64,000 nucleotides of DNA from Olleya sp. YS (GTDB lineage: Bacteria > Bacteroidota > Bacteroidia > Flavobacteriales > Flavobacteriaceae), in the NCBI RefSeq assembly GCF_029760915.1, contig NZ_CP121685.1, positions 1,586,001 to 1,650,000 on the forward strand, in the 5' to 3' direction. Position numbers and translations under genes: made by a program. Positions 8,014-48,904 of this stretch are shown piece after piece. Numbering within the stretch: the stretch's first letter is position 1; each line of letters starts with the position of its first letter. The notes beneath the pieces were generated by a model that saw only the letters and a list, made by a program, of their open reading frames with translations, did not search any database and was not told where the DNA came from.

Positions 8014-8089
8014 TGGTGGTGCCTCCAGGAATCGAACCAGGGACACAAGGATTTTCAGTCCTTTGCTCTACCAACTGAGCTAAGGCACC
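8014..8089 (-). tRNA. tRNA-Phe (anticodon GAA)
   Basis: On the minus strand the gene folds as a complete 76-base cloverleaf with the CCA end encoded. The acceptor stem pairs GGTGCCT with AGGCACC. The D-arm is GCTCAGTTGGTAGAGC, the anticodon loop CTGAAAATC carries GAA, and the T-arm contains GGTTCGATTCC. It is flanked by a promoter-like element and a terminator, so it is probably a single-gene transcript. Confidence 0.97.
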
Positions 8090-45080: not shown

Positions 45081-46010
45081 ATGAAAGGTCCTTTATTTTA
45101 TTCTAAAATTTTGTTGTTTGGTGAATATGGAATCATCAAAGACTCTAAGGGTTTATCAATTCCTTATAATTTTTACAATGGTGCATTAAAAATGGATAAA
45201 AATCCATCTGAAGAGGCACAACAATCCAACAAAAGTTTACAACGTTTCGCAGAGTATTTATCAAAAATAGATGAGCAACTTGTAGTATTTGATATTGATG
45301 CTTTACAAAATGATGTAGCAGCAGGTATGTATTTTGATTCCTCAATTCCTCAAGGTTATGGTGTTGGTAGTAGTGGTGCTTTAGTGGCTGCTATTTATGA
45401 TAAATATGCTCAAGATAAAATTACAGTATTAGAAAATCTTACAAGAGAAAAACTACTAACTCTTAAAACCGTTTTTGCCGAAATGGAGTCGTTTTTCCAT
45501 GGTAAATCCTCTGGTTTAGATCCTTTAAACAGTTACTTAAGCTTACCTATTTTAATAAACTCTCAAGAGAATATCGAAGCAACAGGCATCCCTACCCAAA
45601 GTAGTAATGGGCAAGGTGCAGTGTTTTTATTAGACTCTGGTATTATTGGTGAAACAGCACCAATGGTGAGTATTTTTATGGAAAACATGAAGCAAGAAGG
45701 ATTTAGAAAAATGCTTAAAAACCAGTTTATTAAACATACAGATGCTTGTGTTGACGATTTTTTAAAAGGCGATATCAAATCGTTATTTAAAAACACAAAA
45801 CAGTTGTCAAAAGTGGTACTAAACCACTTCAAACCTATGATTCCTGCTCAATTTCATGAGCTTTGGAAAAAAGGAATTGAAACTAACGACTATTACTTAA
45901 AACTTTGCGGTTCTGGTGGTGGTGGATATATCTTAGGCTTTACACCAGATATTAAAAAAGCAGAAAAAGCTTTAAAAGATTACAAACTAGAGGTCGTATA
46001 CAACTTTTAA
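45081..46010 (+). CDS. Mevalonate kinase (GHMP family)
   Basis: This 309-residue protein has SKILLFGEYGIIKDSKGLSIP at the N terminus, the ATP-binding loop GYGVGSSGALVAA, and SFFHGKSSGLDPLNSYL carrying the catalytic Asp. The C-terminal motif KLCGSGGGGYILGF completes the GHMP set. It phosphorylates mevalonate. Its neighbour mvaD and the distant HMG-CoA reductase/GYDIA kinase pair place it in the isoprenoid pathway. The next gene is a prenyltransferase that uses the pathway's products. Confidence 0.88.
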   Translation: MKGPLFYSKILLFGEYGIIKDSKGLSIPYNFYNGALKMDKNPSEEAQQSNKSLQRFAEYLSKIDEQLVVFDIDALQNDVAAGMYFDSSIPQGYGVGSSGALVAAIYDKYAQDKITVLENLTREKLLTLKTVFAEMESFFHGKSSGLDPLNSYLSLPILINSQENIEATGIPTQSSNGQGAVFLLDSGIIGETAPMVSIFMENMKQEGFRKMLKNQFIKHTDACVDDFLKGDIKSLFKNTKQLSKVVLNHFKPMIPAQFHELWKKGIETNDYYLKLCGSGGGGYILGFTPDIKKAEKALKDYKLEVVYNF

Positions 46011-46023
46011 TAATCTATTTATC

Positions 46024-46149
46024 ATGATGTTAAGCTTAGATGGTTCTTCAATAGGAATATTATTATGGCAATTGTTTGTTATAGCTATAGCAATTATAAT
46101 TTTATACATTTTATTTGTAATTTTTAAGCGAATTTTCTTCAAAAAATAA
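46024..46149 (+). CDS. 41-residue single-helix membrane peptide
   Basis: ATG 46024 (or the next codon, ATG 46027) opens a frame ending at TAA 46147-46149, between mevalonate kinase (13 bases upstream) and the UbiA gene (4 bases downstream). The peptide has one hydrophobic helix (LLWQLFVIAIAIIILYILFVIF) and a basic C-terminal tail (KRIFFKK), so an in-membrane orientation with the tail in the cytoplasm is expected. The position in a packed operon argues for a real gene. No family is recognised. Confidence 0.5.
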   Translation: MMLSLDGSSIGILLWQLFVIAIAIIILYILFVIFKRIFFKK

Positions 46150-46153
46150 GTTC

Positions 46154-47059
46154 ATGTTCTCAAGAAAACAGAAACATATCTTACTTAAATTTTTTAGTAT
46201 GTTTTCTGTAGTAAGAGGCTACAATATTTTAGTTATTGTCATCGCGCAATACTTAACATCAATCTACATATTTGCACCAGACAAACCTTTAAAAAAGGTA
46301 CTGTTTGACGTTAATTTATTAATGTTAGTTTTAGCATCTGCAGCTGTTATTGCAGGAGGATACATAATTAATAATTTTTACGACTCCGAAAAAGATTTAA
46401 TCAACAGACCTAACAAAACTATGTTAGATAAATTGGTTAGTCAAAACACCAAACTATCATTTTATTTCGTGCTTAATTTTTCAGCTGTTGTTATGGCAAG
46501 TTACGTGTCATTTAAGCCTGTTTTATTTTTCTCGTTTTACATCTTTGCTATTTGGTTCTATTCGCATAAATTAAAAAAGCTTCCCATTATTGGTAATGTA
46601 GTTTCAGCAATATTGACATTGACACCATTTTTTGTCATTTTTGTGTATTACTCTAATTTTAAAGCAGTCATCTTTGTACATGCTATATTTCTATTTTTAA
46701 TAGTCGCTATCAGAGAATTAACCAAAGACTTAGAAAATATTAAGGGTGATTTAACTTTAAACTACAGAACAATTCCAGTTGTTTATGGAGAATCTTTTTC
46801 AAAAAAAATAATCACTTTTTTAGTCATTTCAACCTTATTTCCAGTCTATTTTTTAGTAACTAGATTTGATATTGGATACATGTACTTGTACTTTTACATG
46901 TGTGAGGCACTACTAATTATTTATCTCATTTTACTTTGGAAATCTAATACTAAAACACACTATTTGTGGCTACATAACATCCTTAAATTTATAATATTAG
47001 CTGGTGTTTTTAGTATTTTATTGATTGATGTAGACTTAGTTTTAAACCGAATATTATAA
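46154..47059 (+). CDS. UbiA-family prenyltransferase
   Basis: This 301-residue protein has about nine membrane helices. The first UbiA aspartate motif appears as NNFYDSEKDLINRPNK (residues 74-89) and the second region as ELTKDLENIKGDLTLNYRTIPVVYG. In Bacteroidota such genes are often named geranylgeranylglycerol-phosphate geranylgeranyltransferase, but the acceptor cannot be told from sequence. It lies after two mevalonate-pathway genes, consistent with use of polyprenyl diphosphates. Confidence 0.85.
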   Translation: MFSRKQKHILLKFFSMFSVVRGYNILVIVIAQYLTSIYIFAPDKPLKKVLFDVNLLMLVLASAAVIAGGYIINNFYDSEKDLINRPNKTMLDKLVSQNTKLSFYFVLNFSAVVMASYVSFKPVLFFSFYIFAIWFYSHKLKKLPIIGNVVSAILTLTPFFVIFVYYSNFKAVIFVHAIFLFLIVAIRELTKDLENIKGDLTLNYRTIPVVYGESFSKKIITFLVISTLFPVYFLVTRFDIGYMYLYFYMCEALLIIYLILLWKSNTKTHYLWLHNILKFIILAGVFSILLIDVDLVLNRIL

Positions 47060-47061
47060 CC

Positions 47062-48012
47062 ATGGAACACACATTAAAAGTTGCGATAGCACAAATAACT
47101 CCAGTACTTTTAAATAAAATTGAAACCTTAAAAAAAGTAGAAGCATCCATTTTGGAAGCTGTACAACAAGAGGTGGAATTAGTGGTTTTTGGAGAAGCAC
47201 TTGTACCTGGTTATCCGTTTTGGGTCGCATTAACAGGTGGAGCAGACTGGAATACAAAAGTTAATAAAGAATTACACGCTGCTTACATTCGTAATTCTGT
47301 TCAAATTGAATCTGGAGACTTAGACGCTATTTGTAACTTAGCTAGACAACACAAAATAGCAGTATATTTAGGTGTCATGGAACGTGCCAAAAACAGAGGT
47401 GGTCATAGTATTTATGCGTCTTTAGTCTATATTAATAATCAAGGAGATATAAAATCGGTACATCGTAAGTTGCAACCAACCTATGACGAGCGTCTCACTT
47501 GGGCTCCAGGAGATGGTCATGGATTACAAGTACACGATTTAAAACAATTTACATTAGGTGGATTAAACTGTTGGGAAAACTGGATGCCATTACCTAGAAC
47601 TGCCTTATACGGTCTGGGAGAAAATTTGCACATTGCAGTATGGCCAGGAAGTGATCATAACACAAAAGATATTACACGATTTATAGCTAGAGAGTCACGT
47701 AGCTACGTGATTTCTGCGTCAAGTTTAATGACTAAATCAGACTTCCCGAAAGACACACCACACTTAGATAAAATATTAAGTACCTCTCCAGACGTACTAG
47801 CTAATGGTGGAAGTTGTATTGCAGGTCCTGATGGCGAGTGGATTATAGAACCAGTGATACATGAAGAAGGATTAATTACTACAACATTAGATTTTAATCG
47901 TGTGCTGGAAGAACGTCAAAATTTTGATCCAGTAGGTCACTATTCGCGTCCAGATGTCACTAAATTAACCGTAAATAGAGAACGTCAATCTACAGTGACG
48001 TTTAATGATTAA
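47062..48012 (+). CDS. Nitrilase/carbon-nitrogen hydrolase family enzyme
   Basis: This 316-residue enzyme has the Glu-Lys-Cys triad of the family: Glu in VVFGEALVPGYPFW, Lys in VHRKLQPTYDERLTW, and Cys170 in GGLNCWENWMPL. The motif around the Cys (CWEN) is typical of true nitrilases, which convert nitriles to carboxylates, rather than amidases. The natural substrate is unknown. It begins 2 bases after the UbiA gene, a link that looks positional rather than metabolic. Confidence 0.88.
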   Translation: MEHTLKVAIAQITPVLLNKIETLKKVEASILEAVQQEVELVVFGEALVPGYPFWVALTGGADWNTKVNKELHAAYIRNSVQIESGDLDAICNLARQHKIAVYLGVMERAKNRGGHSIYASLVYINNQGDIKSVHRKLQPTYDERLTWAPGDGHGLQVHDLKQFTLGGLNCWENWMPLPRTALYGLGENLHIAVWPGSDHNTKDITRFIARESRSYVISASSLMTKSDFPKDTPHLDKILSTSPDVLANGGSCIAGPDGEWIIEPVIHEEGLITTTLDFNRVLEERQNFDPVGHYSRPDVTKLTVNRERQSTVTFND

Positions 48013-48067: not shown

Positions 48068-48904
48068 ATGAGCAGACATCAAGGTGCCAATGGTAAAGGA
48101 AAATCCTCTGGAAGAGGACGTGATAACTCTAAAAGCAAAACGTATGCTAGAGGTAACGCACCTATTAAGAAAAAAGCAGCATCAAAACCTAATAGCAATC
48201 CAGATTTAATCCGTTTAAATAAATATGTTGCTAATTCTGGCATGTGCTCTCGTAGAGAAGCAGACCAACACATTGCAATGGGACTGGTTACTGTAAATGG
48301 TAAAGTTGTAACAGAGATGGGTTACAAAGTCAAATTAGAAGATGAAGTCCGTTACGATGGAGCCAGAATTAACCCAGAAAAAAAGGCTTACGTCTTATTA
48401 AACAAACCTAAAGGTTTTGCTACAACTACCAGTGAGCAAAAAGGAAGAACCGTTATGGATTTGGTCGCTAATGCAACAAGTGCTAGAATTAAGCCAATAG
48501 GACGTTTAGGTCGAAACTCTACTGGATTATTGTTATTTACTAATGATGAAAAAGTGGTAGCGCGTTTTACAAATTCTAACAAAGGTGTAGAGCGTTTGTT
48601 TCATTTAGAGTTAGATAAAAATTTAAAATTTGAAGATTTAAAAAAAATTAGAGAAGGTTTTAAAGTCGAAGGGAAGCAGGTTAATGTTGAAGAAATAGAC
48701 TATGTAAACAACACTAAAAATGAAGTAGGTGTAAAAATTAAAAATACAGGAAACACCATTTTACATACCATTTTTGAGCATTTAAAATACGAATTGGTTA
48801 GGATTGACTGTGTACAAATAGCACACTTGACCAAAAAAGATATCCCTAGAGGAAACTGGAAAATTTTAACCGAACAAGAAGTGAATACATTAAAAATGAT
48901 GTAA
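48068..48904 (+). CDS. RsuA/RluB-type pseudouridine synthase with catalytic Asp replaced by Gly
   Basis: This 278-residue protein has a basic N-terminal extension (residues 1-45), an S4 RNA-binding domain (IRLNKYVANSGMCSRREADQHIAMGLVTVNGKVV) and an RsuA-type synthase domain (YVLLNKPKGFATTTSEQKGRTVMDLV). The family's catalytic motif is normally GRLDxxxxGL. Here residues 145-152 read GRLGRNST, with codon GGT at 48509-48511 where GAT would be expected. The rest of the motif is intact (GLLLFTND). Either the enzyme is inactive and acts as an RNA-binding factor, or this is a sequence error. Relatives modify 16S or 23S rRNA. Confidence 0.85.
   Translation: MSRHQGANGKGKSSGRGRDNSKSKTYARGNAPIKKKAASKPNSNPDLIRLNKYVANSGMCSRREADQHIAMGLVTVNGKVVTEMGYKVKLEDEVRYDGARINPEKKAYVLLNKPKGFATTTSEQKGRTVMDLVANATSARIKPIGRLGRNSTGLLLFTNDEKVVARFTNSNKGVERLFHLELDKNLKFEDLKKIREGFKVEGKQVNVEEIDYVNNTKNEVGVKIKNTGNTILHTIFEHLKYELVRIDCVQIAHLTKKDIPRGNWKILTEQEVNTLKMM

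Follow-up and report, generated by a model that had tools for sequence, protein, structure and literature searches.

RluB and RluF are the pseudouridine synthases of U2605 and U2604 in 23S rRNA, respectively, and the stretch of RluB with H131 and P132 contacts the A2602 bulge. The part of PMC3919597 available to us describes the catalytic Asp as a residue that every known pseudouridine synthase sequence conserves, and reports that its mutation abolishes activity in TruA, TruB, RluA and RsuA. The same part of that paper records that RluB Arg108 pushes the target base out of the stem, that about 3% of activity is left in the RluB mutant Y140F and about 0.6% in R108A, and that U2605 is modified slightly by RluF in vivo. 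It is an open question whether bacterial rRNA modification enzymes matter for modification or for rRNA binding and folding. In an E. coli strain with ten modification enzymes deleted, re-expression of RluB gave no significant benefit to growth or assembly and inactive RluC(D144A) was of no help, while inactive RlmB(E198A) helped (PMC11194073, excerpted text). RlmB(E198A) resembles the protein described here as a modification enzyme with a function in 50S assembly that is independent of catalysis, according to the same excerpts, but it is an engineered methyltransferase mutant, whereas our case is a natural, fixed replacement. The closest precedent is human RPUSD3, in which the catalytic Asp is also replaced by Gly; the accessible passages of PMC12716993 describe it as a close homologue of the active RPUSD4 that has no noticeable activity on rRNA or tRNA. 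RPUSD3 belongs to the RluA family and is found in vertebrates, whereas our protein is bacterial, belongs to the RsuA/RluB family and is accompanied by further independent losses. Our searches of an open-licence library turned up no description of an RluB-type protein without the Asp in Flavobacteriia, and a term search of the available text of two papers on bacterial pseudouridine mapping (PMC13062092, PMC13236023) returned neither a Bacteroid- term nor position 2605.

The window, by which we mean the whole 64,000-nucleotide stretch analysed (NZ_CP121685.1, positions 1,586,001 to 1,650,000), is from the genome of the marine bacterium Olleya sp. YS, which is 3.0 Mb in a single contig. The nearest named relative at the locus is Olleya aquimaris DSM 24464, with 98% identity. 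The gene and the positions of interest within it are as follows.

48068..48904, + strand: RsuA/RluB-type pseudouridine synthase homologue of 278 aa, predicted to be catalytically dead (ORF, Pfam, structure matches)
48068..48205, + strand: basic N-terminal extension spanning roughly residues 1-46; Asp-bearing orthologues have it too
48212..48349, + strand: S4 RNA-binding domain, residues 49-94 (Pfam, 49 bits)
48503..48505, + strand: Arg146 codon, retained counterpart of the base-flipping RluB Arg108 (RluB alignment; role from the part of PMC3919597 available)
48509..48511, + strand: GGT codon for Gly148, replacing the catalytic Asp, RluB Asp110 (alignment with E. coli RluB, clade, named loci)
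48599..48601, + strand: Phe178, replacing RluB Tyr140 (RluB alignment; Phe in 75/75 clade rows)
48755..48757, + strand: Thr230, replacing RluB Arg194 of motif III (RluB alignment; Arg in 0/75 clade rows)
48809..48811, + strand: Cys248, where Arg is near-universal in orthologues (Cys in 75/75 clade rows, Arg in 120/124 others)

The protein has the S4 and PseudoU_synth_2 domains (the latter at residues 108-227, 55.7 bits; both exceed the curated Pfam cut-offs) and the predicted fold of the RsuA/RluB/RluF family, and it lacks the catalytic Asp of the GRLD motif. The sequence-only reading had noted that GGT at this codon turns Asp into Gly, within the motif PIGRLGRNSTGLLLFTND of the translation of 48068-48904, and that the S4 domain is intact; both observations held, Gly148 aligning with RluB Asp110. 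Going beyond that reading, we found that Tyr140 and Arg194 are replaced as well and that the equivalent of the base-flipping Arg108 is kept. Set against the data on RluB mutants, G148, F178 and T230 indicate that the protein is without the residue central to catalysis and without two that support it. E. coli RluB shares with it the domain architecture, the fold, the GRL motif with the base-flipping Arg and a PRGxW motif near the C-terminus, but differs at Asp110 (Gly), Tyr140 (Phe), Arg194 (Thr) and a conserved Arg (Cys). The positions of RluB H131 and P132 are also altered, so that the target may differ from that of RluB, and H233 aligns with E. coli RluB Arg197. The basic extension is N-terminal in the window protein and C-terminal in E. 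coli RluB. RluF is of the same family and supplies the top structure match, but it keeps GRLD and NRQIRR and forms a separate group. With the NCBIfam equivalog model for RluB the score is 69.7 bits, where the cut-off is 290; the RluF and RsuA models likewise score under theirs. In the tree the window protein stands apart from the RluF group and E. coli RluB is on a long, weakly placed branch, so which E. coli protein is orthologous to this lineage is only weakly resolved. By descent the protein is a member of the RsuA family that lacks the Asp by which pseudouridine synthases are defined, and we regard it as a putative conserved bacterial pseudoenzyme of the RsuA/RluB family.

The tree was built from 199 rows, with the motif columns removed beforehand; the phylum sample comprised 148 genomes, part of which supplied rows. 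Left out of it were the window's own copy (L001), the RluF paralogues (L002 and L059-L071), 80 named loci, the repeats L199 and L201 and the near copies L004, L005, L006, L008 and L010. The biggest all-Gly clade containing the window lineage has 75 rows, five of them from the window's own genus, with an SH-aLRT support of 92. A comparison of orthologues had been set beforehand as a check, and it gave Gly in all 75 of these rows rather than a uniform Asp. Gly148, Phe178, Cys248 and Arg146 are each invariant both in this tree-defined clade (75/75) and in the named loci (80/80). A set of 161 rows (143 distinct proteins) was picked by Gly148 and Cys248, so that these two residues are invariant in it by construction and the tree-defined clade serves as the repeat; its Gly codons are GGA in 73 rows, GGT in 54, GGG in 18 and GGC in 16. 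The difference from Asp had been described as one of a single base, which is right for the window codon and does not extend to the clade, where most rows use another Gly codon. The median dN/dS (NG86) is 0.053 over 259 pairs with 85-99.5% identity and dS below 1.5, at a median dS of 1.27, which is close to saturation. Identity to the window copy is 0.78, compared with 0.79 for RluF (34 Gly-clade rows from 32 genomes; Wilcoxon p 0.28), in a comparison that is tilted towards RluF, most of whose rows are its best-matching loci, and in which G023 and G026 enter twice. No internal stops were found among the orthologues of the 199-row tree set, and Asp-bearing orthologues have the same LLNKPK and FTND motifs and S4 domain. 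The low dN/dS, the fixed residues and the RluF-like similarity argue that the gene is not decaying, and judging from these alignments the replacement of Asp is an old, fixed character of the window clade. The basic N-terminal extension, which the sequence-only reading suggested might help in a non-catalytic role, is not peculiar to Asp-less proteins: it is present both in Asp-bearing rows of the family (median 49.5 aa, net charge +10.5, 46 rows) and in the Gly clade (median 54 aa, net +10, 75 rows).

Outside the window clade, Asp is present in 98 of 124 rows and the other 26 have G, E, N, S, Q, H or K. If only losses are counted, the whole tree requires 15 events; under minimum-change parsimony there are 14 changes on the quick IQ-TREE tree, including some regains of Asp, and 15 on the FastTree. 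The window clade (support 92) lies among Asp-less and Asp-bearing rows, with fork supports of 82, 90 and 17, and it is possible that its loss of Asp is shared with neighbouring Asp-less rows. In the 98 Asp-bearing rows the flipping-Arg position is R in 86, K in 11 and S in one. Among the 26 Asp-less rows beyond the clade the flipping Arg is kept in four and lost in 22, compared with 75/75 in the clade, which sets these lineages apart from it. It looks as if the active site drifts as a whole in the other Asp-less lineages and has been re-fixed in the window clade. In a sample of the family Flavobacteriaceae with one genome per genus (140 genomes), orthologues were found in 131, and Asp is absent from 93 of these, 70 in the window clade and 23 elsewhere. 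Beyond the family Asp is kept in 52 of 55 tree rows, including all 15 from outside the class. Nine family genomes are without an orthologue; seven of them have RluF (G211, G217, G224, G231, G264, G298 and G308), and in the other two, G243 and G288, no orthologue was counted and no RluF matched, G288 having a C-terminal fragment of the orthologue. Six orthologues from one genus, g48 (L193, L194, L196, L197, L198 and L200), have the catalytic Asp (GRMDK) and have lost the usual NRIVRR motif III, which reads ANVKVVRNIF or similar; perhaps they represent an intermediate stage. Eight family rows from genomes of 1.3-2.2 Mb (L051, L308-L313 and L058) have heavily altered motifs, such as GDMGR, FSLGR and DFLKE, and RluF was matched in seven of these eight small genomes. 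Ten orthologues from other families of the class (L202, L203 and L205-L212) are 399-675 aa in length, with long N-terminal extensions.

The window genome encodes five PF00849 proteins, and the other four retain Asp. The sequence-only reading had proposed looking for a second full RsuA/RluB gene: no second RluB-type gene was found in the window genome, and an intact RluF is present. This RluF is a separate gene that groups with E. coli RluF with a support of 100, the window protein falling outside the group, and GRLD and NRQIRR are intact in all 64 RluF rows examined. When RluF is scored as absent at a best E-value above 1e-45, the 131 genomes divide into 26 with Asp and RluF, 12 with Asp and no RluF, 91 with RluF and no Asp, and two with neither. 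Asp is therefore kept in 12 of the 14 genomes in which RluF was not detected, compared with 26 of the 117 that have RluF (Fisher p 4.9e-6 without correction for phylogeny), and the two exceptions that lack both are incomplete genomes, G013 (93% complete) and G242 (80%). An independent-pairs test of Asp loss against RluF was uninformative (median p 1). In a branch-length test nine of 11 RluF losses fall on Asp-bearing branches, which make up 37% of the length (binomial p 0.003), a result that is suggestive only, as the branch lengths are taken from the tree of this same protein and a gene absent from a draft genome is scored as lost. That RluF is needed for the loss of RluB catalysis may be taken as a lead from these distributions.

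An AlphaFold2 model was made from a 69-row alignment (68 of 72 loci plus the window, the very long L202, L206, L207 and L209 being dropped). It has a pLDDT of 80.3 and a pTM of 0.64, with residues 1-22 below a pLDDT of 50. The best match to a solved structure is RluF with RNA (3dh3; Z 23.5, rmsd 8.2 over 228 residues, 31% identity), and it is followed by RluB with RNA (4lgt; Z 22.4, rmsd 8.3 over 230 residues, 26% identity), 1vio (Z 22.1, rmsd 8.1 over 224) and RsuA (1ksk; Z 22.0, rmsd 6.2 over 225), some of the top matches being tied. The catalytic domain alone superposes on RluF 2gml with an rmsd of 2.5 over 169 residues, and the large full-length rmsd would reflect the orientation of the domains in the model. 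PDB entry 9cl9, to judge by its title alone ('WT 12C IM fraction, B-b3 with RluB bound'), would be an assembly intermediate. For the rRNA itself, a 401-base DNA query was run against 30 genomes and matched in 16 and in none of the other 14; U2604 and U2605 are U in all 30 23S fragments fetched from these 16 genomes, six of which belong to the Gly clade. The matched genomes therefore give no support to the idea that Asp was lost because the rRNA target had gone.

The absence of Asp throughout the clade, together with the kept fold, S4 domain and base-flipping Arg and purifying selection, suggests that RNA binding has been retained and chemistry lost. We therefore favour, with a probability of roughly 0.6, the interpretation that this RluB-type protein is catalytically dead and has been conserved for its binding of RNA, probably in the assembly of the 50S subunit, and that RluF is the enzyme that remains. 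The non-catalytic RNA-binding protein that had been proposed from the window is in this respect well supported by the comparison of orthologues. Catalytic deadness is strongly indicated by the residues; the role as an assembly factor is plausible and less firm, and the RNA target and any compensation by RluF are putative. Several points count against this interpretation: re-expressed RluB and inactive RluC(D144A) brought no benefit in the E. coli strain with ten enzymes deleted (although inactive RlmB(E198A) did), the positions of H131 and P132 are altered, orthology to one E. coli enzyme is only weakly resolved, and the link to RluF is not significant in the independent-pairs test. The protein would dock on the 23S stem-loop around nucleotides 2587-2607 of a pre-50S particle by means of its S4 domain and of the groove in its catalytic fold, and the conserved Arg146 may still be inserted there and flip out a base. 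It would then be released with the uridine unmodified, having served as a factor in assembly or folding, and the intact RluF of the same genome would be the remaining active enzyme for the stem-loop. A more specific version can be put forward only tentatively. On this view RluB would have become, in 70 of the 131 sampled Flavobacteriaceae genera with an orthologue (about half), a fixed chaperone that flips RNA without catalysis, acts on the stem-loop of the peptidyl transferase centre and has a conserved pocket of Gly, Phe and Cys of its own; RluF, by keeping up the modification, would have made this state possible. If this is true, it would be a bacterial parallel in the RsuA family to human RPUSD3. 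A large clade appears to keep the protein and drop the chemistry, so that nature would have separated the two functions. With some 15 independent losses of Asp, and with the intact paralogue and the unaltered target bases to serve as controls, the question of which function matters becomes directly testable.

Other explanations account for parts of these data. The protein could be a conserved pseudoenzyme that binds another RNA (an mRNA, tRNA or regulatory RNA) or a protein rather than a 50S precursor, as the changes at the positions of Arg194, H131 and P132 and the kept S4-type RNA binding might allow; Arg146, LLNKPK, FTND and the S4 domain match those of Asp-bearing orthologues, however, which suggests the same RNA surface, and we consider this unlikely. 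It is more doubtful still that the protein is an enzyme with a new set of residues, for example the invariant Cys248, carrying out pseudouridylation or other uridine chemistry. G148, F178 and C248, each in 75/75 rows, do point to a pocket under new constraint and not to decay, but Asp is universal in known synthases and essential where it has been mutated (PMC3919597, the part available), and Arg194 is gone too. That a dispensable enzyme is decaying neutrally and heading for loss would agree with the 15 loss-only events, with the varied Asp site and the loss of the flipping Arg in 22 of 26 Asp-less rows beyond the clade, and with the seven of 140 family genomes that have RluF and no detected RluB-type orthologue. 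Decay may fit those other Asp-less lineages; for the window clade, where the site is invariant, dN/dS is about 0.05 and none of the 199 rows has an internal stop, we hold it to be improbable. A base miscall or assembly error at the one codon, which the sequence-only reading had allowed for, can be dismissed, as GRLG is found in 80/80 named loci of other assemblies with all four Gly codons in use, and nothing was found in its favour.

Synteny also supports the orthology of the Gly and Asp loci. Flanks of about 3 kb were searched for the named loci and of 1.5 kb for the others: of the 104 Gly loci, 99 have a UbiA homologue there, as do 13 of the 16 Asp loci within the same family, compared with none of the 14 Asp loci outside it. 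Upstream in the window (45081-48012) are homologues of a GHMP-type kinase and a UbiA-type protein that are often conserved beside the gene, and a nitrilase-like gene that lies between in the window was found at only 30 of the 104 Gly loci; these three names were read from the sequences by eye. A PADLOC search gave no match, and at Rfam gathering scores the window contains a single match, a tRNA gene at 8017-8089 on the - strand.
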